A DNA stretch of 46,711 bases from Opitutaceae bacterium (GTDB lineage: Bacteria > Verrucomicrobiota > Verrucomicrobiia > Opitutales > Opitutaceae): positions 1-46,711 of the forward strand of contig JAIXVP010000368.1 of assembly GCA_027482905.1 (NCBI GenBank). The letters run 5' to 3'. Below the pieces are notes generated by a model, which was not told where the DNA came from, did not search any database, and saw only the letters and a list, made by a program, of their open reading frames with translations. This document shows positions 3,474 to 40,426 of this stretch, piece by piece (the first letter of the stretch is position 1; each line of letters starts with the position of its first letter). A program made the position numbers and the translations under genes.

Positions 3474-4310
3474 TCAGGGCGCGGGGGGGGCGGCGGGGAG
3501 CACCGGGGCGGATGCGTGGCGAGGCTGAAACCGCTGCGTCTCCGGGATGCCCATCTCTTCTTCCAACTCGCGGATACGGCCAAGCACCACGTCGGGCATG
3601 GCCCCGATATCGTTGGTCGGCAGCGTGGGGTGCAGCTGTTTGAGGAAGGCGTAGGCCTCGGCGTTGCGCCCGAGTTTTCGCAGCAATTCGGCGTGGATCC
3701 GAGCGGCGTAAAAAGGGGCGTCCGGATGACGGGAGGCCTCGAGGTAGAGCTTGGCCGCGGTCTCGTTGTCCTTGAGCCGGTTGAGGTGCACGTTGGCAAT
3801 CTCAAGGATGAGAAGGGGTTCGCCGGGGTGAAACTCCAACGCGTTTTCGAGGTATTTGATCGCGACGGAGGATTGTTCCTCGTCGAAGCGGCGCTTTACC
3901 GCGTCCGGCACCGCGTCGTAGCCGCCGGCCTTGTCGATACGCCAGTTCGGCATGTCGTAGGCGATCATGCGGCTGCCGTTCAGCCAGAAGTAGAGCGGAC
4001 GCGGGTCGATCGCGGTGACCAACTTGATCGAGGTCTGCGTGCCGGGCAGGTCGTTGCCCTCCCAGATCGTGTTGGTGCGAATCCAAAACAGGTCGGCCAC
4101 GATGGCGCGAAACCCGCCAAGCAGGCCGACGGTCACGCCCTGCCCGAGCGCATCTTTCAGCGACTCGAGACGCAGCGCGGGCTGGCCGGCGCGGATCGAC
4201 TGCCACGCGGGAGCCTCCAACGGGCGCAGGGCCACGCCGGCGGCGAAGAGCCCCAGGGCGACGACCGCGCCGGTGCGAAACGGACGAAGGGCGGCGGAAT
4301 CAAATCTCAC
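3474..4310 (-). CDS. Membrane-anchored tetratricopeptide-type protein
   Basis: A 278-residue protein with one N-terminal hydrophobic segment (FRTGAVVALGLFAAGVAL, about residues 9-27) followed by a soluble helical region. The part from about residue 140 (KYLENALEFHPGEPLLILEI, then LYLEASRHPDAPFYAARIHA and LLRKLGRNAEAYAFLKQLHP) has the spacing of tetratricopeptide helices. The tail is Pro/Ala-rich. I start it at the GTG at 4310, inside the last codons of the permease gene (11-nt overlap). An in-frame ATG at 4343 is the alternative. Position behind an ABC-2 permease suggests an accessory subunit of that transporter. The specific function is unknown. Confidence 0.75.
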   Translation of the reverse strand: MRFDSAALRPFRTGAVVALGLFAAGVALRPLEAPAWQSIRAGQPALRLESLKDALGQGVTVGLLGGFRAIVADLFWIRTNTIWEGNDLPGTQTSIKLVTAIDPRPLYFWLNGSRMIAYDMPNWRIDKAGGYDAVPDAVKRRFDEEQSSVAIKYLENALEFHPGEPLLILEIANVHLNRLKDNETAAKLYLEASRHPDAPFYAARIHAELLRKLGRNAEAYAFLKQLHPTLPTNDIGAMPDVVLGRIRELEEEMGIPETQRFQPRHASAPVLPAAPPAP

Positions 4311-13617: not shown

Positions 13618-15609
13618 ATGTCCACCCCGCCCTTTCTTTCCCTGCCCCTCGCCCTGCTGGCCTTCGCGACGGCGGCCGCGTCGCCCGCCACGGCCGCGTT
13701 GATCCTGAAGGTGGACACCTCCGCGCCCGGCAAACCGATCGGCACCGACCTCGTCGGCGTCTTCTTCGAGGACATCAACTACTCCGCCGACGGAGGTCTC
13801 TACGCCGAACTGATCCAGAATCGCTCCTTCGAATACTCCCCTCTGGCGCGGCGCGAATGGACCAATCTCACCGCGTGGGAACTGGCCCCGCGCGGCGGGC
13901 GAGGCGAACTCGATGTGGACGGCGCCTTCCCCCTGCACCCGAACAATCCCCACTACGCCGTGCTCTCGGTGCGTGATGGAGGCGAGGTGGCCCTGATCAA
14001 CGACGGCTTCGACGGCGTCGCCCTGCGCGCCGGCGAAAACTACCGGCTGTCGTTCTTCGCCCGGCGCCTCTACGCCGGCGGCCGCTGGGACGGGCAAAAA
14101 TCCGCCTCCCCGCTACCCCTCGTCGCCCGCCTCGAGACCCGCGACGGCGCCGTGCTCGCCGAACAGCACTTCTCCATCGCCGAGGACGCCTGGGTGAAGT
14201 TGTCCGCCACCCTTACACCCACCGCCACCGCCCCGGCCGCCCGGCTCGTGCTCATCGCGCGCGAACGCGGCGGCCTCGCGCTCGACGAAGTCTCGCTCTT
14301 CCCCGCCAAAACCTTCCGCGATCGCCCGAACGGCCTCCGCGCCGATCTCGCCCAGGCCATCGCCGACCTGCGCCCGCGTTTTGTCCGTTTCCCCGGCGGC
14401 TGCCTCGTCCACGGCGACGGCATTCCGAATTTCTACCGTTGGAAGGACACCATCGGCCCCGTCGAGCAGCGCCGCCAGCAGGCCAACCTCTGGGGCTACC
14501 ACCAGACCGTCGGCCTCGGCTATTTCGAGTATTTCCAATTTTGCGAGGACATCGGCGCCCGCCCCCTGCCCGTCGTGCCCGCCGGCGTCAGTTGCCAGAA
14601 CTCCGGCCACACCGGCGGCACCGGCCAGCAATGCCTGCCCCTCGCCGACATGGACGCCTACATCCAGGACGTGCTCGACCTCGTCGAGTGGGCCAACGGC
14701 CCCGTCACCTCGACCTGGGGCGCGAAACGCGCCGCCGCCGGCCATCCGGAGCCCTTCGACCTGAAATACCTCGGCGTGGGCAACGAGGACCGCATCACGC
14801 CCGGCTTCCGCGAACGCTTCGAGTTGATCCAGCGCGCCGTCCAGGCCCGCCACCCCGAGATTGTCGTGATCGGCACGGTGGGCCCCGCGCCCGACGGCGA
14901 GGACTTCGAGCGCGGTTGGCGCATAGCGGACGAGCTGAAGGTGCCCATGGTCGACGAACACTACTACAAATCGCCCGGCTGGTTCTGGGACAACCTCGCC
15001 CGCTACGACGCCTACGACCGATCGCGCGCCCAAGTCTACGTCGGCGAATACGCCGCCCACGACGACAATCGTCGCTCCACCCTGCGCGCCGCCCTCGCGG
15101 AGGCCGCTCACCTCACCGCCCTCGAACGCAACGGCGACGTGGTCGCCCTCGCCTCCTACGCCCCTCTCCTCGCCAAACGCGGCCGCACCCAGTGGAGCCC
15201 CGACCTGATCTACTTCGACAACACCGGCGTCTACCCGACCCTCAGCTACGAGGTGCAGAGGCTGTTCGGCAACAACGCCGTCGCGACCGTGCTGCCCGCC
15301 ACCCTGTCCGACGCGCCCGCCGCGCTCGCGTTTTCCACCGCCCGCGACACCGCCGGCGATCTCGTGCTGAAACTGGTCAACGGCTCCGCCGCTCCCCGCC
15401 CGCTGCGCATCGAGCTCGCCGGCTTCGCCCGAGCCTCCGCCCCGGCCTCGCTTTCCGTGCTCGCCCACCCCGACGCCGGAGTCGCCAACGAGGACGGCCG
15501 CCCGCCCGCCGCCGCCACGCGCACCGAAGGCATCGTCGTCGCGCCCGCCTTCGAACACGTTCTGCCCGCCCACTCCCTCACCATCATCCGCATCCCCTCC
15601 GCCCCGTGA
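13618..15609 (+). CDS. Alpha-L-arabinofuranosidase, family GH51
   Basis: A 663-residue secreted enzyme removing terminal alpha-L-arabinofuranose from arabinan and arabinogalactan. A signal peptide covers residues 1-27. The mature protein starts LILKVDTSAPGKPIGTDLVG, the usual GH51 opening. A CBM4/9-like insert lies at about 80-230. The TIM barrel carries acid/base Glu390 in GVGNED and nucleophile Glu477 in YVGEYAAHD. The C-terminal beta-domain spans about 545-663. The stop codon overlaps the GTG start of the next gene (GTGA), implying coupled translation. Confidence 0.95.
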   Translation: MSTPPFLSLPLALLAFATAAASPATAALILKVDTSAPGKPIGTDLVGVFFEDINYSADGGLYAELIQNRSFEYSPLARREWTNLTAWELAPRGGRGELDVDGAFPLHPNNPHYAVLSVRDGGEVALINDGFDGVALRAGENYRLSFFARRLYAGGRWDGQKSASPLPLVARLETRDGAVLAEQHFSIAEDAWVKLSATLTPTATAPAARLVLIARERGGLALDEVSLFPAKTFRDRPNGLRADLAQAIADLRPRFVRFPGGCLVHGDGIPNFYRWKDTIGPVEQRRQQANLWGYHQTVGLGYFEYFQFCEDIGARPLPVVPAGVSCQNSGHTGGTGQQCLPLADMDAYIQDVLDLVEWANGPVTSTWGAKRAAAGHPEPFDLKYLGVGNEDRITPGFRERFELIQRAVQARHPEIVVIGTVGPAPDGEDFERGWRIADELKVPMVDEHYYKSPGWFWDNLARYDAYDRSRAQVYVGEYAAHDDNRRSTLRAALAEAAHLTALERNGDVVALASYAPLLAKRGRTQWSPDLIYFDNTGVYPTLSYEVQRLFGNNAVATVLPATLSDAPAALAFSTARDTAGDLVLKLVNGSAAPRPLRIELAGFARASAPASLSVLAHPDAGVANEDGRPPAAATRTEGIVVAPAFEHVLPAHSLTIIRIPSAP

Positions 15610-17969
15610 TCCCGCGTCTTCCCTGGCTTGCCCTGCTCACCCTGCTGTTGTCCGCCTTCACCGCGAAACCGCTCCACGCCTCCACCATGCCCCGTCATTC
15701 CTTCAGCATCGCCGCCGAGGACTTCCTCCTCGACGGCCAGCCCTACGTCATCCGCTGCGGCGAGATTCATTTTCCCCGCGTGCCGCGCGAATACTGGCGC
15801 CATCGCCTGCAGATGTGCCGCGCCCTCGGACTCAACACCGTGTGCGTCTACCTGTTCTGGAATTTCCACGAGTGGGAGGAGGGGCGCTACGACTGGAGCG
15901 GCCCGGCCGACGTCGCCGAGTTCTGCCGCCTCGCCCAGGCCGAGGGCCTGTGGGTCATCCTCCGCCCGGGCCCCTATTCGTGCGCCGAGTGGGAGATGGG
16001 CGGCCTGCCGTGGTGGTTGGTCAAGACCGACGGCATCGGGCTGCGCTCCACCGATCCGCGTTTTCTCGAACCGGCCACCCGCTACCTCAAGGAAGTCGGC
16101 CGCGTGCTCGGTCCGCTCCAGATCACCCGCGGCGGCCCCATCCTGATGGTGCAGGTGGAAAATGAATACGGCTCCTTCGGGGACGACGCGGCCTACATGG
16201 GGGCGCTCCGCCAGTCTCTGCTCGACGGCGGCTTCGACGTGCCGCTCTTCGCCTGCAACCCCGCCGGCGCCATCGGCCAGGGTTGGAGATCCGACCTGTT
16301 CCAGGTGGTGAACTTCGGCGCGGGCGCCGCGCGCAAATCGTTCGAGACACTGCGCAAGTTTCAACCGACCGGCCCGCTGATGAACGGCGAGTATTACCCC
16401 GCCTGGTTCGACGTTTGGGGCCGCCGCCACCACACCGGCCCGGCCGGACCCATCGTGGCCGACCTCGACTACATGCTGACCCATCGGCACTCGTTCAGCA
16501 TCTACATGGCCCACGGCGGGACGTCCTTCGGCCTCTGGGCCGGCGCCGACCGTCCCTTCCTCCCCGACACATCGAGCTACGATTACGACGCCCCGATCAG
16601 CGAGGCCGGCTGGGTCACGCCGAAGTTCGACGCCATACGCGAGGTCTTCGCCCGCCACCTCCAGCCCGGCGAAACCCTTCCGCCCCCGCCCGCGCCCAAC
16701 CCGGTCGTCGCCGTGCCGCCCTTCGCCCTGACCGAGACCGCTCCCCTGCTGGCCAACCTGCCCGCACCCGCCGCCGACGACACCCCGCGCACCATGGAGT
16801 TCTACGGCCAGTCGCGTGGCGTCACCGTGTATGCGACCACCCTTCCCGCCGGCCCCGCCGGCCTGCTTTCGACCGAGGCGGTGCACGACTTTGGCTGGGT
16901 CTTTCTCGACGGGCGCCCCGCCGGCGTGCTCGACCGCCGCAGCCGCCGCTTTGCCCTCGCCCTGCCCGCCCGCGCCGCCGTCACCCGCCTTGAAATCGTG
17001 GTCGAGGCGATGGGACGCGTGAACTTCGGCCGCGAGGTGTTCGACCGCAAGGGCATCCACGGCCCCGTCCGCTTCACGCCGGCCGACGCCGAACCGTTCG
17101 TGGTCCGCGACTGGCGGATCCACTCGCTCCCGCTCGACGCCACGACCCTCGACGCCTTGCGTTTCCGGCCGGCCGACGCCACCGAATCCGGTCCGGCCTT
17201 CCGGCGCGGCGCCTTCGACCTCGCCGCGCCCGGCGACACCTTTCTCGACGTCCGCACCTGGGGCAAGGGCGTGGTCTGGATCAACGGCCACTGCCTCGGC
17301 CGCTTCTGGAACATCGGGCCAACCCAGACGATGTATGTTCCCGGCGTCTGGCTCCGCGCCGGCCGCAACGAAGTCGTGGTGCTCGACCTGCTCGGCCCCG
17401 CCCGCCCGGTTCTGGCCGGCCTGGAACGTCCCATCCTCGACGAACTGCGGCCCGAGCTCGATTTCGCCCGCTCCGTCCGCGCGCGCGGCGCCTTCGACGC
17501 CGACGGCCTAGCCGCCGCGTTCACCGGCGAACTCCGCCCCGAGGCCGAGTGGCAGGCGTTGGCCTTCGCCCGCCCCGCCACCGGCCGCTACCTCGCCTTC
17601 GAGGCCCTCGACGCCCATGACGGCCAGGCCCACGCGGCCATCAGCGAACTCGAGACCGTGTCCCCCGCCGGACAGGTCTTGTCCAAATCCGCCTGGACCA
17701 TCCTCTGGGTCGACAGCGAGGAAACCGCCGCCGAACCGGGCTACGCCGAGAACCTACTCGACGGGCAGCCCAACACCCACTGGCACACCGCCTACGGCGA
17801 AAAATCCACGCCGTTCCCCCACCGCGTCGTGATCGACCTCGGCGCGAACGTCGAGATCGGCGCCGTCCGCTACCTCGCCCGCGCGGGCGAGCTCAACAAA
17901 CCCGGCCGGGTGAAGAACGCCCGCGTCTACGTCTCCGACCAACCCTACGGTCTCGCCCCCGCCCGCTAA
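15606..17969 (+). CDS. Secreted beta-galactosidase, family GH35
   Basis: A 787-residue enzyme that removes beta-galactose from galactan side chains. The start is the GTG at 15606, overlapping the GH51 stop. It is chosen because it supplies a signal peptide (LPWLALLTLLLSAFTAKPLHAS); an ATG at 15687 would lack one. The catalytic barrel holds the GH35 signature GGPILMVQVENEYGSFG with acid/base Glu187 and nucleophile Glu262 in MNGEYYPAWF. Jelly-roll domains follow, with TWGKGVVWINGHCLGRFWNI near residue 560. The C-terminal 130 residues (YLAFEALDAHDGQAHAAISE, ENLLDGQPNTHWHTAYG) form an F5/8 type C (CBM32-like) domain. A much longer open frame upstream is only a shadow of GH51. Confidence 0.95.
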   Translation: MIPRLPWLALLTLLLSAFTAKPLHASTMPRHSFSIAAEDFLLDGQPYVIRCGEIHFPRVPREYWRHRLQMCRALGLNTVCVYLFWNFHEWEEGRYDWSGPADVAEFCRLAQAEGLWVILRPGPYSCAEWEMGGLPWWLVKTDGIGLRSTDPRFLEPATRYLKEVGRVLGPLQITRGGPILMVQVENEYGSFGDDAAYMGALRQSLLDGGFDVPLFACNPAGAIGQGWRSDLFQVVNFGAGAARKSFETLRKFQPTGPLMNGEYYPAWFDVWGRRHHTGPAGPIVADLDYMLTHRHSFSIYMAHGGTSFGLWAGADRPFLPDTSSYDYDAPISEAGWVTPKFDAIREVFARHLQPGETLPPPPAPNPVVAVPPFALTETAPLLANLPAPAADDTPRTMEFYGQSRGVTVYATTLPAGPAGLLSTEAVHDFGWVFLDGRPAGVLDRRSRRFALALPARAAVTRLEIVVEAMGRVNFGREVFDRKGIHGPVRFTPADAEPFVVRDWRIHSLPLDATTLDALRFRPADATESGPAFRRGAFDLAAPGDTFLDVRTWGKGVVWINGHCLGRFWNIGPTQTMYVPGVWLRAGRNEVVVLDLLGPARPVLAGLERPILDELRPELDFARSVRARGAFDADGLAAAFTGELRPEAEWQALAFARPATGRYLAFEALDAHDGQAHAAISELETVSPAGQVLSKSAWTILWVDSEETAAEPGYAENLLDGQPNTHWHTAYGEKSTPFPHRVVIDLGANVEIGAVRYLARAGELNKPGRVKNARVYVSDQPYGLAPAR

Positions 17970-28825: not shown

Positions 28826-30571
28826 ATGCCTCCCAGCCCCGCCCCGCTGCCCGCCAGTCTCCCGCGTTTCCTCTGGTCCCAGCGCCGCGCGTTCCTGCCC
28901 GGTCTCGGCGTCGCGCTCCTGCGCATCGTCACCATCGCCCCGCTGCCCGTCATTTTCCAACGCATCCTCGACGTCCACGTCCCCGCCAAGGATGTGCGCG
29001 GAATCCTCCTGCTCTCCGCCCTCACCGTCGGCCTGCTCGTCCTCCACCAAATCGCCAGCGTGCGCGGCGCCTCCCTGCTCGGCACCGCCGTCTCGCGCGT
29101 CGTCCTGGAGCTGCGCGCCCGCATTTTCCACAAGGTCCAGTTCCTGAGCTTCGGCTACCTCGACCGCCAGCAAACCGGCCGCCTGCTGTCCAAATATGCC
29201 TTCGATACCCAGAAGGTCGAGGGCGTGATGATGCCGGTGTTGAACGGCTTCATCCCGGACACGCTCTACAGCCTGCTCACCTTCGGCGTGCTCGTCGCGC
29301 TAAACTGGCCCCTCGCCCTCGTCGTGGTGCTGATGCTTCCGGTCTTCGCCTTCATGCGCGCCCGCTACTTCGCCCGCTTCCGGACCAAGAACGAGGCCAA
29401 CCGCATCGCCCAGGAACACCTCACCGGCTCGGCCAGCGAGTTGTTCACCGCGCTGAAACTGGTTCGCGTCTACGGCGAGGAGGCCCGCGCCGCCGACACC
29501 CTCGCGGCGGGCAACGACGCCGTCGCCCGCTCCCGGGTGGAGTTGATCGCGGTGTCGTCCAGCTTCGGCGCCTTCAGCTTCGCCGCGATCAAGGTCCTCT
29601 CGCTCATCGTCGTCGCCGGCGGCGCCCTGCTCACCATCCACGGACAGGTCAGCATCGGCGCGGTCATCGCCTTCGTCGCCGGCGTGCCCATCCTGGTGAA
29701 CCCGATCCAGATGTTCGCGAGCGTGAGCGAACAATACTTCACCGCCGAGGCCGGCTACCGCAGCGTGAACGAACTGCTCGACGCGCCCTACGTCGAGGAA
29801 TGGCACGGGACCGTCCGCCCGGAGCCGCTGCGCGGACGCATCACCTTCGACCGCGTGCAGTTTCACTACCCCGACAACGCGCGCGGCGCGATCAACGACC
29901 TCTCGCTCGACCTCGCGCCCGGCGAGAAGGTCGCCTTCGTCGGCCCCTCCGGCGCCGGCAAAAGCACCCTGGCCAATCTCCTCCTCGGTCTGCATCGCCC
30001 CCAATCCGGCGAGATCCGCATCGATGGCGTGGCCCAGGCCGACCTCGACCTGCGCTGGTTCCGCCGCCGCACCGCGCTCGTCATGCAGGAGAGTCCGCTG
30101 CTCTCCGGCACGGTGGCCGACAACCTCCGCTTCGCCCGCACCGACGCCACCGACGAGGAGGTTCAAGCCGCCGCCCGCCTCGCCCACGCCGAGGAATTCA
30201 TCCTCCGCCTGCCCGAGGACTACGCCACCCGGATCGGCGAACGCGGCGCGCTGCTCTCCGGCGGCCAGCGCCAGCGCCTCGCCATCGCCCGGGCTCTGCT
30301 GCGCGACCCCGCCGTGCTCATCCTCGACGAACCCACCTCGGCGCTCGATTACGAAAGCGAACGGCTGATCCAGCAGGCCCTGGACAACCTCGCCCGCGGT
30401 CGCACGGTGATCACGATCGCACACCGCCTCAGCACGATCCGCCACGCCGATCGGATCGTGGTGCTGAACGAGGGCCGCATCGTCGAACAGGGCACCTTCG
30501 CGCAACTCTCCGCCGCCGGCGGCTATTTCGCCCAGCTCCTCGCCTCCGGCGAAACCGGCCTCGCCACCTGA
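28826..30571 (+). CDS. ABC exporter, fused permease and ATPase (MsbA/LmrA-like)
   Basis: A 581-residue half-transporter that should work as a homodimer in the inner membrane. The N-terminal 330 residues carry six membrane segments with the type-1 exporter coupling region (FLSFGYLDRQQTGRLLSKYA). The ATPase has Walker A GPSGAGKST, signature LLSGGQRQR, Walker B VLILDEPTSALD and H-loop IAHRLST. The ATG at 28826 is used; an upstream TTG at 28805 is possible but adds only seven residues. The substrate is unknown: lipid, drug or peptide export is typical, and sugar import is not expected. It precedes the second GH35 gene by 23 nt, so it may be co-transcribed with the downstream hydrolases. Confidence 0.93.
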   Translation: MPPSPAPLPASLPRFLWSQRRAFLPGLGVALLRIVTIAPLPVIFQRILDVHVPAKDVRGILLLSALTVGLLVLHQIASVRGASLLGTAVSRVVLELRARIFHKVQFLSFGYLDRQQTGRLLSKYAFDTQKVEGVMMPVLNGFIPDTLYSLLTFGVLVALNWPLALVVVLMLPVFAFMRARYFARFRTKNEANRIAQEHLTGSASELFTALKLVRVYGEEARAADTLAAGNDAVARSRVELIAVSSSFGAFSFAAIKVLSLIVVAGGALLTIHGQVSIGAVIAFVAGVPILVNPIQMFASVSEQYFTAEAGYRSVNELLDAPYVEEWHGTVRPEPLRGRITFDRVQFHYPDNARGAINDLSLDLAPGEKVAFVGPSGAGKSTLANLLLGLHRPQSGEIRIDGVAQADLDLRWFRRRTALVMQESPLLSGTVADNLRFARTDATDEEVQAAARLAHAEEFILRLPEDYATRIGERGALLSGGQRQRLAIARALLRDPAVLILDEPTSALDYESERLIQQALDNLARGRTVITIAHRLSTIRHADRIVVLNEGRIVEQGTFAQLSAAGGYFAQLLASGETGLAT

Positions 30572-30594
30572 AAGCCACGACTTCGCTTCCCTCC

Positions 30595-31743
30595 ATGCCC
30601 CGCTTAACCATTCCGTTCACCCCGGTCGCGACCGCCGAGACCTACCAACTCGGCACCACCCAAAACCCCGCCGGCTCGACCATCGGCGTTGATCCGCTCA
30701 GCCTGCGGCTCGACGGCGAGCGCTGGATGCCCGTCATGGGAGAGTTCCACTACACCCGCTTCCCCGCCGCCGGCTGGCGCGAGGAGTTGCTGAAAATGAG
30801 GGCCGGCGGGATCGACGCCGTCGCGACCTACGTTTTCTGGATTCATCACGAGGAGGTCGAAGGCGAGTTCAACTGGACCGGCGACCGCGACCTGCGCCGC
30901 TTCGTCGCCGCCGCCGGCGAGGTCGGTCTGAAGGTCGTCGCGCGTCTCGGCCCCTGGTGCCACGGCGAGGTGCGCAACGGCGGCCTGCCGGACTGGGTGG
31001 TGGAAAGCTTCGGCGACGCCGCCCGCACCGACGCCCCCGCCTACCTCGAGTCCGTCCGCCGCCATTTCGGCGCCATCGCCGCCCAGCTTGACGGCCTGCT
31101 CTGGAAACAGGGCGGCCCCATCGTGGCCTTCCAGATCGAGAACGAATACGGCGGGCCCGCCGAACACCTCCTTACCCTGAAGCGCCTCGCCCGCGAGGTC
31201 GGGCTCGACGCCCCGCTCTACACCCGCACCGGCTGGCCCGACCTCGCCACGCCCCTGCCCTTCGGCGAACTCCTTCCACTCTACGGAGCCTACCCCGAGG
31301 GTTTTTGGGACCGCGACCTCGCGCCCATGCCCGGCTTTTACCCCGCCGGTTTCCGTTTCTCCCCGCTGCGCACCGACGCCGCCATCGCCACCGACCTGCT
31401 GGGCGAACGCGCGGCCGCCGACGCCGCCGACACCACCCGCTACCCCTTCCTCACCTGCGAGCTCGGCGGCGGCATGATGAGCAGCTACCACCGCCGCATC
31501 CGCATCGATCCACGCGACATCGAGTCGGTCGTCCTCACCAAGCTCGGCTCGGGCGGCAACCTGCCCGGCTACTACATGTATCACGGCGGCCTCAATCCCG
31601 ACGGCCTCACCTCCCTGCAAGAATCGCAGGCGACGCACTACTGGAACGATCTCCCGGAAAAAAACTACGACTTCCAGGCCCCGCTCGGCGCCGCCGGCCA
31701 GCTTCGCCCGCACTACCACCGCCTGCGCCGCCTCCATCTTTAA
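30595..31743 (+). pseudogene. GH35 beta-galactosidase, catalytic part, cut by an in-frame stop
   Basis: A 382-codon reading frame with a full GH35 barrel and no signal peptide, so the original enzyme was probably cytosolic. It has LRLDGERWMPVMGEFHYTRF, acid/base Glu184 in GGPIVAFQIENEY, and nucleophile Glu289 in FLTCELGGGM. It ends abruptly after LRPHYHRLRRLHL at a TAA that opens an A-rich stretch. The same frame continues with matching GH35 sequence to 32901, so an intact gene would code for about 768 residues. Either the gene is broken, or the A-rich stretch is a sequence error. The catalytic half might still fold alone, but the missing beta domains make activity doubtful. Confidence 0.8.
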
Positions 31744-31762
31744 AAAAAAAAAAACAAAAAAA
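31741..31762 (+). other. A-rich tract with stop codon inside the GH35 gene
   Basis: The stretch is T, thirteen A, C, seven A, in a neighbourhood near 70 percent GC. It introduces TAA at 31741 and would otherwise read Lys/Asn codons. The frame before and after is the same. The eight codons from the stop to the next recognisable residues correspond in number to the FLxDFGPx-type segment I expect between LHL and LA in this GH35 group. On the minus strand it reads as a long T-run preceded by the GC-rich hairpin at 31768-31781. Confidence 0.8.
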
Positions 31763-32901
31763 TCCTCGCCGGCCAGCCGGCTCATTTTCCCACCGAACGC
31801 CCGGCCTCGCGCGACGACACCTCGACCCTGCGCTGGTCGGCGCGCTCGGACGGCCGCTCGGGATTCGTATTCGTGAACAACTACGAGCGCCTGCGCCCCC
31901 TCGCCGCCAAATCGGACGTGCGCTTCGTCCTCGATTTGTCCGGCGGTCGGATCGAGTTTCCCTCCTCTCCCGCCACGATCCCGGCCGACTCCGCCTGCAT
32001 CTGGCCCTTCGGGCTCGAAGTCGCGCCCGGCGTCCGCCTCGACCACGCCACCGCGCAGCTCCTCTGCTCGCTCGACGAGGGTAACACCCGCACCGTCTTC
32101 TTCGCCGCCACCCCGGGCGTTCCCGCCGAGTTTGCGTTCAACGGCTCCGCTCCCGCCCTCCTCACTCCCGGCCGCGATGTTGCCCTCTCCGTCCAGGGTT
32201 CCGGCGAAACCACGCTCCGCATCGTGCTGCTCGACGCGGCCGACAGCCTCGCGCTCTGGAAGGACACCTGGCGCGGCCGCGAACGCGTTTTTCTCACGCG
32301 CGCCGGCCTGGTGGTCGACGGCGACGCGCTGCGCCTGGGGGCCGAGATCGCCGCCGACCTGGCCCTCGCCGTGTTCCCGCCGCTCGATCCAACCGCGCCG
32401 CTCGACGGCGTTTTTCAACCGCTGCGGTTCACGCCGCCGCCCACCCGCCCGTCGCCTCCGCTCCTTGAACCCGTGTGTCTCCGCGCCGCCGGCCCGGCCC
32501 GCGAGATCCCGCTCGGCTGGACAACCCCGCCCGTCGCCGTCGCCCCGGTCGACGCCGACTTCGCCGCCGCCGCCGCGTGGCGCATCGTCCTGCCCGCCGG
32601 CCTCGATGTAGCCGCGACCCCGCTCCTGCGCTTGCGCTACACCGGCGACGTCGCCCGCGTCCGCGTCGGCGATCGCCTCGTGCTGGACGACTTTTTCAAC
32701 GGCGACGTGCTCGAACTCGACCTCGTCCGCCACGCCGCCGCGCTCGACGCCGGCGCCGCCCTCACCGTGGAGATTCTGCCGCTGCGGGCCGATGCGCCCA
32801 TCCTCCTGCCCGCCGGCGCCCGTCCCGCGGTCGGCTCGCCGCCGGTCGCATGCCTCGCCGCCGGCGAACTCGTTCCCCGTCACCATGGGTTTTTCAGCTG
32901 A
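31744..32901 (+). pseudogene. GH35 beta-galactosidase, C-terminal beta domains (detached part)
   Basis: This continues the frame of the catalytic part beyond the TAA. LAGQPAHFPTERPASRDDTS, then LRWSARSDGRSGFVFVNNYE, is the conserved link from barrel to beta domain in this GH35 group. Beta-rich modules follow (IEFPSSPATIPADSACIWPF; LLRLRYTGDVARVRVGDRLV with LDDFFNGDVLELDL). A GTG at 31873 could start a separate protein, but it lies in the middle of a conserved strand (FVFVNNYERL), so independent expression of a stable product is unlikely. The end overlaps the next gene by 17 nt. Confidence 0.8.
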
Positions 32902-33952
32902 AAATCCGCCGCGTCGCCTCGCCCGGGCCGCCCTCCACGCCACCGTTTTCCTGCTCTCGCTCATGCCCGCCTCCGCCCAGTCGCCCGTTTTCCCCGCCGC
33001 CGCGCGCCCGCTGTTCCGCGATCCCGTCCACGACGGCGCCGCCGATCCCGTCGTCGTCTGGAATCCCCGCGCCGCCGCCTGGTGGATGTTCTACACCAAC
33101 CGCCGCGCCAACGACCCCGCGATCCCCGACATCGCCTGGGTCCACGGCACCCGCCTCGGTATCGCCGAGTCGCGCGACGCCGGCGCGACCTGGATATACC
33201 GCGGCGTGGCCGCCATCGATCTGCCGCCCGCGCTCGGAGCCTCCGCGACCATCACGCACTGGGCGCCCGAGATCGTCGCGCACGCGGGCCTGTTCCACAT
33301 GTATCTCACCGTGGTCCCGGGCGTATTCACCGACTGGCAACACCCGCGGGCCCTCGTCCACCTGACCAGCCCGGACCTCGAAACCTGGACCTACCGCTCC
33401 ACTCTCTCGCTCAGGTCGGACCGCGTGATCGACGCCTGCGTGCTGCGCCTGCCGGATGGGCGCTGGCGCATGTGGTATAACGACGAACGCGCCGGGAAGG
33501 CCATCAACGCCGCAGAGAGCCACGACCTCTTTACCTGGACCGACCTCGGCCTGGTCGATCTCCCCTCACGCCGGCCGGGCGAGGGTCCGAAGGTGTTTCG
33601 CTTCGCCGACGCCTTCTGGATGATCGTGGACGAGTGGCGCGGCCTCGCCGTCTATCGCTCCGCCGACGCCGTGGCCTGGACCCGGCAACCCGGGGAGAAT
33701 CTGCTCGCCCGCGCCGGCGCCGGGCCCGACGACGCGTCCATCGGCAACCACGCCGACGTGGTGGTGAACGCGGGCCGCGCGTGGATTTTCTACTTCACCC
33801 ATCCCGAGCGTCCGGTCGAAGGCGAACCCGCCCCGGGAGCGCAAACCCGCCGCAGCACCCTCCATGTCGCCGAGCTCGTGCTCGGACCCGAAGGTCGCCT
33901 CGCCTGCGACCGCGACGCCTCCGCCGACATTTCCCTTCTGCCGCCGCCATGA
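32885..33952 (+). CDS. Secreted GH43-like five-bladed propeller glycosidase
   Basis: A 355-residue protein with a signal peptide (residues about 10-32, ALHATVFLLSLMPASAQ). The repeated blade motifs are those of the GH43/GH32-type propeller fold: DGAADPVVVWNPRAAAWWMF, ITHWAPEIVAHAGLFHMYLT, DACVLRLPDGRWRMWYND and GEGPKVFRFADAFWMIVDEW. Candidate catalytic residues are Asp54, Asp183 and Glu233, spaced as in GH43. The match to well-known arabinanase subfamilies is weak, so the linkage cut is unknown. The ATG at 32885 opens the signal peptide and overlaps the preceding gene end. The stop overlaps the start of the next GH43 gene by ATGA. Confidence 0.8.
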   Translation: MGFSAENPPRRLARAALHATVFLLSLMPASAQSPVFPAAARPLFRDPVHDGAADPVVVWNPRAAAWWMFYTNRRANDPAIPDIAWVHGTRLGIAESRDAGATWIYRGVAAIDLPPALGASATITHWAPEIVAHAGLFHMYLTVVPGVFTDWQHPRALVHLTSPDLETWTYRSTLSLRSDRVIDACVLRLPDGRWRMWYNDERAGKAINAAESHDLFTWTDLGLVDLPSRRPGEGPKVFRFADAFWMIVDEWRGLAVYRSADAVAWTRQPGENLLARAGAGPDDASIGNHADVVVNAGRAWIFYFTHPERPVEGEPAPGAQTRRSTLHVAELVLGPEGRLACDRDASADISLLPPP

Positions 33953-34923
33953 ACCCGCGTCGCGGCCCCCTCCTCCTCATCCTGGCCGCCGGATTTTTCG
34001 CCGGAGCCGGTCCCGCCTCGGCCGCCGAGCCGCCCGGACGCCGCTCCCTGCGTATCCACGATCCGTCCACGATTGTCGCCGCCGACGGCGCCTTCTGGAT
34101 CTTCGGCACCGGCAAACGCGTTCTCTCCGCCAAATCCACCGACCTGCTCGCCTGGACTCGCCTGGGGCCGGCGTTGACCGAGGCGCCCGCCTGGGCCGGC
34201 GCGATCGCCCCGGGCAACAAAAACGCCCACTACTGGGCCCCCGACGTCATCAAGATCGGCGACCGCTACCACCTCTATTACTCGGTCTCCGAGTTTGGCA
34301 AAAACACCTCCGCCATCGCCCTCGCCACCTCGCCCACCCTCGATCCTTCCGCACCCGACCACCGCTGGATAGACCGGGGCATCGTGATCCGCTCCGGCGC
34401 GAGCGACGATTTCAACGCCATCGATCCCTCCGTCCTGCTCGACGCCGACGGCCGCCTCTGGATGGCCTTCGGCTCGTTTTGGGGCGGACTCTTCCTGGTC
34501 GAACTCGATCCCGAGACCGGTCTGCGCCTCGCCCCGGACTCCGCGCTTCACCACCTCGCCGACTCCGCCGAGATCGAGGCGCCCACCCTGGTCCGGCGCG
34601 GCGATTACCACTACCTTTTTGTCAACGAAGGCCTCTGCTGCCGGGGCAAGGCCAGCACCTACCGCATTCGCGTCGGCCGCAGCCGCGTTGTCACCGGTCC
34701 CTACCTCGACGACCAGGGCCGCGATCTGCGCGCGGGCGGCGGACGCGAATTCCTCGGCACCTCGGGCGATTTCATCGGCCCGGGGCACCCCACGATTTTG
34801 CATGAAAACGGCCGCGAATGGGTCGCCGTGCATTTTTACGACGGCTCCCACGACGGCCAGCCCACCCTCGCCCTCCGCCGCCTCGCGTGGACCGACGACG
34901 GCTGGCCCCGCGTCGTCGACTGA
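33949..34923 (+). CDS. Endo-alpha-1,5-L-arabinanase, family GH43
   Basis: A 324-residue secreted propeller enzyme that cuts the arabinan backbone internally. A signal peptide covers residues 1-26. The catalytic triad is clear: Asp38 in RIHDPSTI, Asp159 in NAIDPSV, Glu210 in EIEAPTLV. The surroundings NAHYWAPDVIKIGDRYHLYY and FGSFWGGLFLVELDPETG are arabinanase hallmarks, and the length is usual for a single-domain arabinanase. The ATG at 33949 overlaps the previous stop. It would supply oligosaccharides to the arabinofuranosidases encoded upstream. Confidence 0.95.
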   Translation: MNPRRGPLLLILAAGFFAGAGPASAAEPPGRRSLRIHDPSTIVAADGAFWIFGTGKRVLSAKSTDLLAWTRLGPALTEAPAWAGAIAPGNKNAHYWAPDVIKIGDRYHLYYSVSEFGKNTSAIALATSPTLDPSAPDHRWIDRGIVIRSGASDDFNAIDPSVLLDADGRLWMAFGSFWGGLFLVELDPETGLRLAPDSALHHLADSAEIEAPTLVRRGDYHYLFVNEGLCCRGKASTYRIRVGRSRVVTGPYLDDQGRDLRAGGGREFLGTSGDFIGPGHPTILHENGREWVAVHFYDGSHDGQPTLALRRLAWTDDGWPRVVD

Positions 34924-35013: not shown

Positions 35014-36987
35014 ATGAAAATCCCCGCCTCGTTCGCCCTGCTCGCGCTGTTGCTTGCCCAGCCCTCGTTCAGCGCCCCCGCACCGCAGGTCGAGGCGCTG
35101 TCGCGCGGCCTCGCCGGCCTCCAACAGCCCGACGGCAAGGTTTTCCTCTCCTGGCGCCTGCTCGCCGACGACCCCGCCGACATCGCCTTCAACGTCTACC
35201 GCACCACCACCCCGCCCGGCACCGCCCCGATCGACTTCGGCGCCTTCGCCTCCACCCCCGACGCCCCGCCCGGCACCGTCCGCCTGAACGCGAACCCTCT
35301 GACCGACGTCACCTGGTTCCTCGATCCGGCGCCGACCCTCCGCTACGCCACCGCCTACTACGTCCGCGCCGTCATCGGCGGCGTCGAACAAACCTCCTCC
35401 CGCCCCCTCGCCTTCGCCGCCGGCGCCGAGCCCCGCGCCTACCACTCCATCGCGATGAAAAACCCGGAGGGCCACCAGCCCGCCGAGGGCTCCGCCGCCG
35501 ATCTGGATGGCGACGGCGACTACGAACTGATCGTGAAACAGGAGGGCCGCGCCTTCGACAATTCCAAGAGCGGCGTCTCCGATCCCGTCATCCTCCAGGC
35601 CTACAAACTCGACGGCACCCTCCTCTGGCAGATCAACCTCGGGAAAAACATCCGCGCCGGCGCCCACTACACCCAGTTCATCGTCTACGACTTCGACGGC
35701 GACGGCCGCGCCGAACTCGCCTGCAAAACCGCCGACGGCACGGTCGACGGCAAGGGCAAGGTGATCGGCGACGCCTCGGCCAACTACGTCAACGCCGGCG
35801 GCCACATCCTCGCCGGCCCCGAATTCCTCACCGTCTTCGACGGTCTGACCGGCGCCGCCATCGACACCGTTCCCTACGAACCCGCCCGCCACCCGACCAA
35901 CCCCCTCGCGCCCACCCGCGACGAACTCAAGGCCGTCTGGGGCGACGGCAATGGCAACCGCTCCGATCGTTACGTCGCCGGCGTCGCCTACCTCGACGGC
36001 GTCCGCCCCAGCCTGATCATGTGCCGCGGCTACTACACCCGCAGCTGCCTCGCAGCCTACGCCCTGCGCGGCGGCAAACTGGTCAAACGCTGGCTTTTCG
36101 ACAGCTCCGCCGGCCCCGAGTCCAACCGCGCCTACGCCGGCCAGGGCAACCACCAGCTCTCCGTCGCCGACGTGGACAACGACGGCCGCGACGAGATCGT
36201 TTACGGCGCCATGGTGATCGACGACAACGGCACCGGCCTCTACTCCACCGGCTGGGGCCACGGCGACGCCCTGCACGTCTCCGATCACACCCCCGCCAAC
36301 CCCGGCCTCGAGATTTTCGCCATCCAGGAACGTTTCGGCAAAGAAGGCATGTCCTTGCGCGACGCCGCCACCGGCCGCCCCATCTTCACCGTTCCCTCCG
36401 TCAAGGCCGACGAGTCCGGCGGCGACAAGGGCGAGGGCCCCGGCCGCGGCGTCGCGTTCAACATCGACCCGCGCTTCCCCGGCAGCGAGTCCTGGGCCGC
36501 CGGCGCCGGCATGACCAAGATGTTTACCGCCGCCGGCAAGGTCATCTGCGACCGCCCGCGCGGCACGCCGGTCAACTTCGCCGTGTGGTGGGACGGCGAC
36601 CTCCTCCGCGAGTTGCTCGACCAAAACTTCATTGGCAAATGGAACTGGGAAACCCAGACCACCGACCGCGTCCTGACCGCCCACGAATGCATTTCCAGCA
36701 ACGGCACCAAGGCGACCCCCTTCGTCTCCGCCGACCTCTGGGGTGACTGGCGCGAAGAGGTGGTCTGGCGCACCCGCGACGGCTCCGCCCTGCACATCTA
36801 CACCAGTCCCATCCCGACCAAATACCGCATGGTGACCCTGATGCAGGACCCGCAATATCGCTGCGCCATCGCCTGGCAGAACGTCGCCTACAACCAGCCC
36901 CCGCACCCCTCCTTCGCCCTCGACCCCGCCCTGCCCCTTCCCGCCCGACGCGCCGTGGCCGTCCTGCCTCGGTCCGCTTCACGCTAA
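35014..36987 (+). CDS. Rhamnogalacturonan lyase, family PL11 (YesW/YesX-like)
   Basis: A 657-residue secreted lyase of the eight-bladed propeller family that cleaves the rhamnogalacturonan-I backbone. A signal peptide covers residues 1-20. The N-terminal beta domain opens VEALSRGLAGLQQPDGKVFL. The propeller carries the calcium motifs typical of PL11: DLDGDGDYELIVKQ, YDFDGDGRAELACKTADGTV and ADVDNDGRDEIVYGAMVIDD. The ending MQDPQYRCAIAWQNVAYNQP with PHPSF is a strong family signature. It is a second RG-I lyase, unrelated in fold to the PL4 enzyme. A 90-nt gap and the shared motif suggest its own promoter. Confidence 0.96.
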   Translation: MKIPASFALLALLLAQPSFSAPAPQVEALSRGLAGLQQPDGKVFLSWRLLADDPADIAFNVYRTTTPPGTAPIDFGAFASTPDAPPGTVRLNANPLTDVTWFLDPAPTLRYATAYYVRAVIGGVEQTSSRPLAFAAGAEPRAYHSIAMKNPEGHQPAEGSAADLDGDGDYELIVKQEGRAFDNSKSGVSDPVILQAYKLDGTLLWQINLGKNIRAGAHYTQFIVYDFDGDGRAELACKTADGTVDGKGKVIGDASANYVNAGGHILAGPEFLTVFDGLTGAAIDTVPYEPARHPTNPLAPTRDELKAVWGDGNGNRSDRYVAGVAYLDGVRPSLIMCRGYYTRSCLAAYALRGGKLVKRWLFDSSAGPESNRAYAGQGNHQLSVADVDNDGRDEIVYGAMVIDDNGTGLYSTGWGHGDALHVSDHTPANPGLEIFAIQERFGKEGMSLRDAATGRPIFTVPSVKADESGGDKGEGPGRGVAFNIDPRFPGSESWAAGAGMTKMFTAAGKVICDRPRGTPVNFAVWWDGDLLRELLDQNFIGKWNWETQTTDRVLTAHECISSNGTKATPFVSADLWGDWREEVVWRTRDGSALHIYTSPIPTKYRMVTLMQDPQYRCAIAWQNVAYNQPPHPSFALDPALPLPARRAVAVLPRSASR

Positions 36988-36989
36988 AT

Positions 36990-37014
36990 CCGTTGGCGAT
37001 AGTCGCGTCAACGG
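36990..37014 (+). terminator. Hairpin after the PL11 gene
   Basis: CCGTTGGCGA and TCGC-GT-CAACGG pair (6 plus 4 bp with a two-base bulge and a TAG loop), starting two bases after the PL11 stop. There is no T-run, so it may act as a transcript end-stabilising hairpin or a Rho-assisted terminator. Confidence 0.45.
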
Positions 37015-37749
37015 TCGGTATGGGCGCCGGGAATGCGCGAATGGGTTTCAAGGATCAACGATACAAAAGAGGGCCCGGACAGGCCGGTGACGACTCCCGT
37101 CCGTATCATCGATGTGAAGCAGCCGGCATACGCGTGATCGTAAAAGTCAGACAATCCGACTTCTGGCCTTGATGGGCGTGCCGTCGCGACGGCAGTTCAG
37201 ACATGAGGAAGCTTGGTCTATTCATCGCTTTACGCCTTTGAAACCAACCGTCATCCCACCACTTCAGGTCCCGGCGTTTGCATTCCAAATCGTTGATCGC
37301 GTTCTATGGTGCGGCTCCGTGCGCCAGCCTCCGTCCGTCGGTGGGCTCCTGAATTGCAGATGCCAATACCCACGAAATCCCCGTGCCGTCGTGTTAAACC
37401 AGGCGAAACAGCGTCGAGCAATCCCTGCGCATGCGATTTTTTGCGCCGAGCCTTTTGATACTCCTTTTCGCGGCCCACCGGTAAGACAATGATGACCAGG
37501 CCTTTATCCGGAGTGCCGTTGCCGGGCGGTGTGTCTGAATGGCGCCGCGGTATGTATCTCCCGCCCCCACGCCTTTCGTTTAGGCGAGTAGCCGGACCGC
37601 GCCATCCAACCTGAAACCACGCATTGCGAAAAGTTGGCGGAATTCGTCTCCAAATCTCGCTAAACAAGGTATCGAGCCATCTTGCGCCTCCGTGTAGCGC
37701 GCCGTCCCCTCTGCTAAAGAACACTCCCCCGCACTCCATTCCTAATGAT
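37015..37749. other. Intergenic region, no gene recognised
   Basis: About 735 nt of lower GC than the surroundings, between PL11 and the next GH43 gene. Open frames of 60-220 codons exist on both strands but none shows family similarity, codon bias or a plausible start. It may hold the promoter of the GH43 gene and decayed sequence at the edge of an insertion. Confidence 0.6.
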
Positions 37750-39684
37750 ATGATCATCTCCAACCTTCTCACTCGTGTCCCTGTCCTCCTAAGGGTTCTC
37801 ATCGCCGCGCTCGGCCTTCCTTTCACGGTGGGGATCGCCCATGCGGTCACCGATGGTCTGCCCGGTATGGTTGGAATTGGCACTTGGGGAAGCGAAGTGG
37901 AGTTCAAGGACTTCAAAGTCACAAAGAACGGCGAGCTGCTCTACGAGAGCGACTTCCGCAAGGGCATGGAGGGCTGGAAAACCTTTCGCGGTCGTTGGGA
38001 AGTCATCGACGGCGCACTCCGGCAAACCAGCACCGAGGCGGATTGCCGTGCCCTTATCGGCGACCCCGGTTGGATCGATTGCACCATTACCTTGAAGGCG
38101 CGTAAAATCGCCGGGGACGAAGGTTTTCTTGTCCTATTCGGTTACCCTGCCGCGGACGCGGATTTTAAGTCGTGGTTGAATCTCGGCGGCTGGGGCAATT
38201 CCCACCACGCCTTGCAATCCCCTAACATATTTGAAAAACGCACGCCCGGTCGCATCGAGACCGGGCGTTGGTATGAAGCAAAAGTCGAGCTGAGCGGAGA
38301 CAACGTGCGCGCCTACCTTGATGGTCAACTGGTTCAATCGGCACGCTTGCCCTCCGTGGCCGGCGCGCAACGAAACTTGGGAAACGCCCTGATTCCGGAT
38401 TTGGTCGCCGATCCCAGTATTTTTGAGGTCGGTGGCATGTTTTATTGCTATGCAACCACCGACGGGATGGGACAAGGCCTTGCGACGGCGGGGCTTCCCG
38501 TGGTCTGGAAATCCCGGGACTTTCTTAATTGGAGTTTCTCCGGATCCATTTTCCCGGCCGGTTTCGATCTGAAGTATTGGGCGCCGAGCGCCCCGGTGAA
38601 AAAAGACGGCAGATACTATCTTTTCCCCACCCTGAACAATCGCATAACCGCAGTGGTCGCGGATTCGCCCGAAGGTCCGTTTTATCTACCGAACGGCGGG
38701 GAGATAAACTCGCGGTCCGGCTGGAAAACTTTCCCGATAACGGTGGGGCACCCGATCGATGCGGATATCTTCAAGGATGATGATGGCTCATTTTACATGA
38801 GTTGGTCGGAGCGTTTTATGGCCAAGCTCAACCAGGACTTCACCGCGTTTGACGGCGAACCGTTCAAGGTTCGGACCAAACGCGGGGGTTATTCCGAAGG
38901 GCCGGTGATCCTCAAACGCGGGGAAGTTTACTATTATCTTTATACGCTGGGGGGCAGCGAATCCTATCAGTATGCCTACATGATGAGCCGTCATTCGGTG
39001 CGAGGTCCGTGGGAGGCTCCCGATCGAGACATTATTGCGACCACCAATCGGGAAGCGGGCGTTTTTGGCCCAGGCCATGGGACCTTCTTTAATCCAGCGG
39101 GCTCCTCGCGTTGGTTTTTTGTTCACCTCGAATATGGCAGGTCGGGCACCAATCGGCACGTGATGGCCGCGGAAATGCAATTCAACGCGGACGGCACGAT
39201 CGAGCCGATTCAACTCTCGCTCGACGGGGTCGGAGCCCTTCGGCCCGATCCCGCCTACGCCGCCACGAACCTGGCGCTCGGAGCCAAAGTCTCCGCCTCC
39301 TCGACCCGAGCCGATGTTCGTATCAAACCGATCGCCGACCCTCTGTTGAATCGCATCGAAACATTCTCACCGAGCAATGCGATCGACGCCTCGAATGGCA
39401 GTCGATGGATGGCACGCGACGGAGATGAGGCGGTCTGGCTCCAGATCGACCTGGGAAAGATTCACCCGCTCAGTCGCACCGAAATTTATTTTGTCACGCC
39501 AACCAAAGGACACGCCTACCTTTTGGAAACGTCTTTAGACGGTCAAAACTGGAAGCGCGCAGGCGGGCACGAAGACGTTCGAATCCAGTCTCCGCATGTG
39601 GATAAGCAGTTGGGTGAAGTTCGCTATCTTCGTGTGCAAATCCGGCGCGGAGCGCCCGGGATATGGGAGTTCCGCGTATATTGA
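37750..39684 (+). CDS. Secreted GH43 glycosidase with concanavalin-like and F5/8C domains
   Basis: A 644-residue protein. The signal peptide is residues 1-32 (VLLRVLIAALGLPFTVGIAHA). A concanavalin-like domain follows (about 35-200; VGIGTWGSEVEFKDFKVTKN, then ALIGDPGWIDCTITLKARK), similar to the accessory domain of some GH51 arabinofuranosidases. The GH43 propeller (about 210-545) has Asp221 in VADPSIF, Asp337 in PIDADIF and Glu383 in YSEGPVI. The C-terminus is an F5/8 type C domain (AIDASNGSRWMARDGDEAVW, IHPLSRTEIYF). Codon use is visibly less GC-rich than in neighbouring genes, suggesting a different origin. The ATG at 37750 fits the signal peptide; an ATG at 37624 would add 42 unrelated residues. 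Confidence 0.9.
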   Translation: MIISNLLTRVPVLLRVLIAALGLPFTVGIAHAVTDGLPGMVGIGTWGSEVEFKDFKVTKNGELLYESDFRKGMEGWKTFRGRWEVIDGALRQTSTEADCRALIGDPGWIDCTITLKARKIAGDEGFLVLFGYPAADADFKSWLNLGGWGNSHHALQSPNIFEKRTPGRIETGRWYEAKVELSGDNVRAYLDGQLVQSARLPSVAGAQRNLGNALIPDLVADPSIFEVGGMFYCYATTDGMGQGLATAGLPVVWKSRDFLNWSFSGSIFPAGFDLKYWAPSAPVKKDGRYYLFPTLNNRITAVVADSPEGPFYLPNGGEINSRSGWKTFPITVGHPIDADIFKDDDGSFYMSWSERFMAKLNQDFTAFDGEPFKVRTKRGGYSEGPVILKRGEVYYYLYTLGGSESYQYAYMMSRHSVRGPWEAPDRDIIATTNREAGVFGPGHGTFFNPAGSSRWFFVHLEYGRSGTNRHVMAAEMQFNADGTIEPIQLSLDGVGALRPDPAYAATNLALGAKVSASSTRADVRIKPIADPLLNRIETFSPSNAIDASNGSRWMARDGDEAVWLQIDLGKIHPLSRTEIYFVTPTKGHAYLLETSLDGQNWKRAGGHEDVRIQSPHVDKQLGEVRYLRVQIRRGAPGIWEFRVY

Positions 39685-40426
39685 CCCTTCACTTTCTTGG
39701 AGACTCGCCAAACGGCGGCGCCGTGCTCGGTCCAATCGGCTGGCTTTGCGTAGCCGAAAGCCGATCGTGTGCTCCGCAGCCGTGGATTCCACCTCGGGAT
39801 TCGGACCGGGCCGAAACGCCGGGCCGCGCGGTTCACGGACCAAGGAATAGCCGCAAAAGCAGATAAACGCCTCAAGCACGCCAACGTTCCATAAACACGG
39901 TCGGGCCATGTCCAAAGTGCTTGAAATTCCGACTACGGAAGCGTTGCACCTGCTCGTTGAGCATGGTGATAACGCGCTTCAAGCCACCGCATCACGCCAT
40001 CCGGGGCGCGGACCATGGCCGGCGAGGCGGATGGCACACGAAGGGTAAAGGCTGATCCCGGGCTCCGAGACCCTTGCCCGATCCTAAGAGGGGCCAGCGT
40101 GGCGGCGGTTAAACTGAGGATTGAACCACTTCACACATTCTCCGCCGACTTCCGCCCACTCGCCATCACCCCTGGCAACAACGATGATGCCTACCTTCGG
40201 AAAACCCAGTTACCCCGGCGGAGTATCGCGCCGGACGCTTCGCCAGAACACCCGGGTGAACGCGGTTTCCGAATCAAGTGGCGATGGACCCGGCGTGTCG
40301 TCCGGCGTTTAAACCGTCGATCCGGCGCCGGTTTCGTTTTGAAAATCCCAAGACCCGTAGTTCTCTACCCTTTGCCCATTTCGCTTAACCCGATCCGAAT
40401 CGCCGCCGTCAATTTTACCACGCTTT
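39685..40426. other. Intergenic region, no clear gene
   Basis: About 740 nt with lower GC than the locus average, between the GH43 and GH27 genes. Apart from a possible 46-codon frame at 39908 I see no coding pattern, repeat or RNA gene. Together with the gap before the GH43 gene it frames that gene on both sides with apparently decayed sequence. Confidence 0.55.
39908..40048 (+). CDS. Possible small protein or gene remnant, 46 codons
   Basis: An ATG-initiated frame whose first 30 residues (MSKVLEIPTTEALHLLVEHG onwards) look like a real amphipathic helical protein start. It then degenerates into a Pro/Arg-rich tail before a TAA. I do not recognise it. It could be the beginning of a gene lost by deletion. 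Confidence 0.2.
   Translation: MSKVLEIPTTEALHLLVEHGDNALQATASRHPGRGPWPARRMAHEG

Follow-up and report, generated by a model that had tools for sequence, protein, structure and literature searches.

A length-preserving, A-rich overwrite that places a stop codon in a GH35 gene of an Opitutaceae draft genome: very probably an artefact

Introduction

Runs of A are known slippage sites, and an uncalled base may be turned into an A by certain base-calling, correction or assembly programs. Intrinsic (rho-independent) terminators combine a stable GC stem with a T-run that follows it directly. On the side of sequencing, short reads contain uncalled bases and B-tails, as passages of one earlier study set out (PMC3334598). 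The locus described here – an A-rich tract that puts a stop codon inside an otherwise open GH35-family gene – can be set beside each of these, and beside the orthologues of that gene in the same genus, in which the reading frame is single and uninterrupted.

The tract lies in contig C365 of an Opitutaceae metagenome draft (GCA_027482905.1, here G000) of 457 contigs and 86.85% completeness. This contig, analysed over its full 46,711 nucleotides, is referred to below as the window. An initial annotation of the window had offered three explanations for the tract: an artefact, a recent mutation that split the gene, or a functional feature. Our analysis strongly favours the first, with overwrites in other genes as support, and speaks against a functional terminator.

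Results

The interrupted gene is an open reading frame of the GH35 family on the plus strand (30595-32901), which runs from ATG to stop over 768 codons, internal stop counted. Its family membership, proposed from the translation, is borne out by orthologues in the same genus and by a match of residues 1-382 to Pfam Glyco_hydro_35 (PF01301) that stands far above the curated cut-off (E 2.7e-56; 191.9 bits against 27); searched by itself, the second half of the frame matches no Pfam family at E 0.001. There is one internal stop only, a TAA at 31741-31743, by which the gene departs from the uninterrupted frame of its congeners. This TAA opens, in frame, the tract T-A13-C-A7 (31741-31762, plus strand); the letters and translation of the window confirm both its composition and the open frame on either side. 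Together with the two bases that follow, the tract makes up eight codons that read *KKKNKKI (31741-31764).

Within the window the tract stands alone. It contains the sole A or T run of at least eight bases, the other homopolymer of that length being a G8 (3483-3490). A8 matches six times, always within the tract, as compared with a mean of 0.46 and a maximum of 4 in 100 shuffles. The exact tract pattern has no match in the viral_contigs set, and the source draft holds no second version of the stretch.

The genes around it are those of polysaccharide breakdown. The frame is followed by a gene for a GH43-like protein (32885-33952; E 3.9e-9) and by one for a family 11 rhamnogalacturonan lyase (35014-36987; E 3.7e-200), and this combination suggests a cluster for pectin or galactan utilisation. 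A second, distant GH35-like stretch (37% identity) is found at 15720-16253. Further downstream, GC content falls to 0.56-0.59 over positions 37001-40000, from 0.68 in the kilobase before and against 0.63-0.69 in the two kilobases after; this segment is possibly acquired DNA.

The nature of the tract becomes apparent from comparison with relatives. With the first half of the frame as query, matches were obtained in 25 of 57 genomes, source included, and a GH35 orthologue was identified in 9 of the 14 other genomes of the genus, with 77-90% of amino acids identical over residues 1-382 (in one case 15-382). All nine carry normal gene sequence at the tract site, where the codons in register with the eight of the window read F[VI][RH]D[FYH]G-x-L, and none shares the tract. 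A conserved segment had been predicted at this place with the motif FLxDFG; the segment is there, in the form F[VI][RH]D[FYH]G. Alignment of the whole frame with eight of the nine orthologues (the one from G008 was left out; the comparison of tract DNA covers all nine) shows no identical tract codon, eight different ones and no gap in each. A first comparison of tract codons lacked L033, and in it five rows on the wrong strand (L027, L028, L030, L034 and L035) were not counted. Gene length is likewise preserved: orthologues L112-L116 encode 765-768 amino acids and L117 encodes 787, while L118 runs past its contig and L023 stays open for at least 881 codons, up to the end of the piece compared. 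Since the same eight codons stand in register and gene length is kept in nine of nine congeners, the tract is a length-preserving overwrite and not an insertion, as the initial annotation had proposed.

The overwrite is sharply bounded. The 24-base blocks on either side match congeners at 15-24 of 24 positions, the tract itself at 4-8 of 24. Among its 20 A positions, 13 agree with none of the nine congeners, six agree with one to four, and position 11 agrees with all nine; thus not every A represents a change. The two non-A letters behave differently from the majority of the A's: nine of nine congeners have the initial T and seven of nine have the C at position 15, and judged by this agreement both letters look like true bases. 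Per 60 codons, the window differs from congeners by 3-7 amino-acid changes before the tract and 11-24 after it. Among the intact congeners themselves (36 pairs) the corresponding figures are 1-9 and 5-26, and the flanks of the window, falling within this range, give no sign of decay of the GH35 gene.

Runs of at least 11 A's occur at four places in the source draft: the tract in the window and one each in contigs C110, C99 and C47. Three of the four reach 13 bases, where a 4.35 Mb sequence of independent bases is expected to hold about 0.0002 such runs at 31% AT and 0.006 at 40% AT. The run in C110 is an A16 (14093-14108, equivalent to L009:1501-1516) that lies antisense to a gene for pyruvate:ferredoxin oxidoreductase (PFOR), in which it turns FFDGF into FFFFF with length kept; FFDGF stands in register at this site in eight congener genomes and in PDB 6cin. 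Three of the PFOR matches (L222 in G003, L223 in G005 and L227 in G004) contain one or two internal stops that may precede the actual start of the gene. In C99 an A16 forms the very start of the contig (L110:1-16), directly before otherwise GC-rich sequence. That sequence is not repeated in full elsewhere in the draft, where its matches are partial, about 30-132 bases long and 72-90% identical. The fourth run, an A11, closes a reading frame in C47 that we take to be helicase-like; used as a query it has no match in the 14 congeners, and it is therefore counted neither for nor against an artefact.

A survey of all 57 genomes found A or T runs of at least 13 bases in six: four of the 15 genomes of the genus (source counted) and two of the 42 outside it. 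The latter are G049, where the locus has a GC content of 40%, and G056, where a T-run stands at a contig start. Within the genus the carriers are G000, G002, G004 and G007, all of them fragmented (457, 540, 580 and 330 contigs, respectively) and 79-87% complete. Such runs are absent from the better assemblies of close relatives, namely G010, which is a single contig, and G005, G009 and G011, these four being 99-100% complete. They are absent also from G001, G003, G006, G008, G012, G013 and G014, among which G006, G008, G012 and G014 are themselves fragmented, a point that counts against an artefact.

The genus holds 16 such tracts in total, three in the source draft and 13 in the three other drafts. 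They measure 13-19 bases and eight are exactly 16 long. For five of the 16 the nearest contig end is no more than 20 bases away, against an expectation of 0.09 (P about 2e-8, with a threshold picked after the data had been seen). Several fall within recognisable genes. In G002 an A16/T16 in proB (L098:1501-1516) gives LKKKKKP where 14 of 14 other genomes have L-x-L-K-[KR]-K-P in register; the proB relatives are already A-rich there, with AAG and AAA codons, which makes this a weaker case of overwriting. In G004 one A16/T16 falls in a class I fumarase gene (L107:1501-1516), with QKKKKN in place of P[DE]Y[FLI]KN (12 rows in register; PDB 6mso), and another in a gene for a branched-chain-type ABC ATPase (L104:548-563), identified by a Pfam match and aligned to the distant PDB chain 6hs3 without a gap at the tract. 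An A16 in G007 (contig C3; L076:1501-1516) lies within a reading frame that matches aldose 1-epimerase. Length is kept in each of the five tracts compared, out of the 16 – GH35, PFOR, proB, fumarase and the ABC ATPase, the last by reference to distant PDB chains only – just as register is kept against all nine orthologues of GH35.

Long A-runs are found well beyond the genus. Of 273 genomes of the order, 47 have runs of at least 14 bases, and good genomes are not exempt (25 of 182); a long A-run is thus no proof of artefact by itself. At 24 of the 29 loci with such runs that were retrieved from the order the flanking GC content is below 0.55, and it is in such surroundings that natural long A-runs are more likely.

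Discussion

Taken together, the length-neutral nature of the substitution, its confinement within the genus to fragmented drafts, the enrichment at contig ends and the retention of what appear to be true letters point to a loss of base identity at the level of reads, written as A. On this comparative evidence we regard it as highly probable that the GH35 tract is a sequencing or assembly artefact of the metagenome draft; in the organism itself the GH35 gene at this place is very probably intact.

Such an artefact could come about as follows. One or a few reads would form the only bridge over the spot and would contain a run of cycles with no usable signal. Base calling, read correction or the encoding of N could then turn the uncalled or low-signal bases into A, and the assembler, at low depth, would retain the bad read for want of an alternative. 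Genuine base calls would account for the lone C and the initial T of the tract. The range of tract lengths, from 13 to 19, means that no single simple rule fits all tracts. One such rule was considered, the zeroing of a 32-bit word (16 bases) in 2-bit packed sequence: it suits the eight tracts of length 16, fails for lengths 13-15 and for the C in the window, and is kept as a possibility only.

The strongest competitor is a recent and real mutation, in which 21 bases were overwritten with A's and the GH35 gene was split into a pseudogene or two half-proteins. The tract does lie well inside a 46.7 kb contig, the draft offers no alternative version of the stretch, and both halves are otherwise open, with variation inside the congener range, the state to be expected if the event were very recent. 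But the non-A letters of the tract match most congeners, and the event would have to be repeated independently in PFOR, proB, fumarase and the ABC ATPase across three drafts; we know of no mutation that swaps some 20 mixed bases for A while keeping the exact length. We consider this explanation improbable. Less probable again, indeed very unlikely, is a novel mutational process in the genus that replaces about 16 bases at a time with A's, length kept, in conserved genes of several species.

A functional role for the tract has next to no probability in our judgement. Two forms of it may be distinguished: an antisense intrinsic terminator, and a slippery A-tract that would let the ribosome or the polymerase bypass the stop by programmed slippage. 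The terminator, proposed by the initial annotation, would be formed on the minus strand by the 14-base GC palindrome GCCGGCcaGCCGGC (31768-31781), which we take to be ordinary coding sequence. The site does share with intrinsic terminators a GC stem and a T-rich minus-strand tail: a consensus scan lists it, as a loose match with a stem of five pairs (31781-31768), and the interval 30501-33000 contains six terminator-like sites, this one included, where shuffles give 1.4. It differs from them in lying inside a coding gene and in the weakness of its fold, which is no better than that of shuffles (z -0.70; 45 of 200 shuffles fold as well). Stem and T-run, moreover, do not adjoin on the minus strand, five bases (GAGGA) lying in between. 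The T-run is nothing other than the suspect tract, and it is absent from nine of nine congener rows. The region 30000-34000 has no Rfam match to a structured RNA. The proposed terminator is thus not upheld. That same absence from congeners tells against programmed slippage, for which a slippery run upstream of the stop and conserved in relatives would be expected; here the TAA comes first, at the 5′ edge of the A's, and slippage within the run would come too late to avoid the stop.

As remote is a chimera, in which the contig joins unrelated or two-strain sequences via a shared poly-A k-mer: such k-mers can be common to unrelated contigs and five of the 16 tracts stand at contig ends, but a join would not be expected to preserve exact length and register in five of five genes, and both flanks belong to one GH35 gene, in which conservation drops after the tract by no more than it does among congeners.

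The biology of the GH35 gene is ordinary, and the value of the case, if the tract is indeed an artefact, is as a warning on public draft genomes. Length-preserving overwrites of the A16 type stand unmarked in public drafts and create spurious stops and the false appearance that conserved residues, such as the DG of FFDGF in PFOR, have been lost. Being visible neither as N's nor as frameshifts, they can mislead automatic pseudogene calls and motif surveys. Candidates could be found by screening GC-rich drafts for A or T runs of at least 13 bases and comparing these with congeners. The openings of abstracts from the literature on poly-A, uncalled bases and assembly errors contain no description of such A-overwrites, which at that level is not proof of absence.

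How the locus stands to the systems nearest to it can be put briefly. With the GH35 (PF01301) orthologues of its genus it has gene, register and flanks in common, and it differs from them only by a 22-base tract with a stop. With runs of uncalled or low-quality bases, as treated in passages of PMC3334598, it shares a loss of base identity over successive cycles that leaves length intact. Those passages concern raw reads in which uncalled bases are marked by a dot, whereas the window presents A's in a finished contig, and the conversion from the one to the other is a step that we infer.
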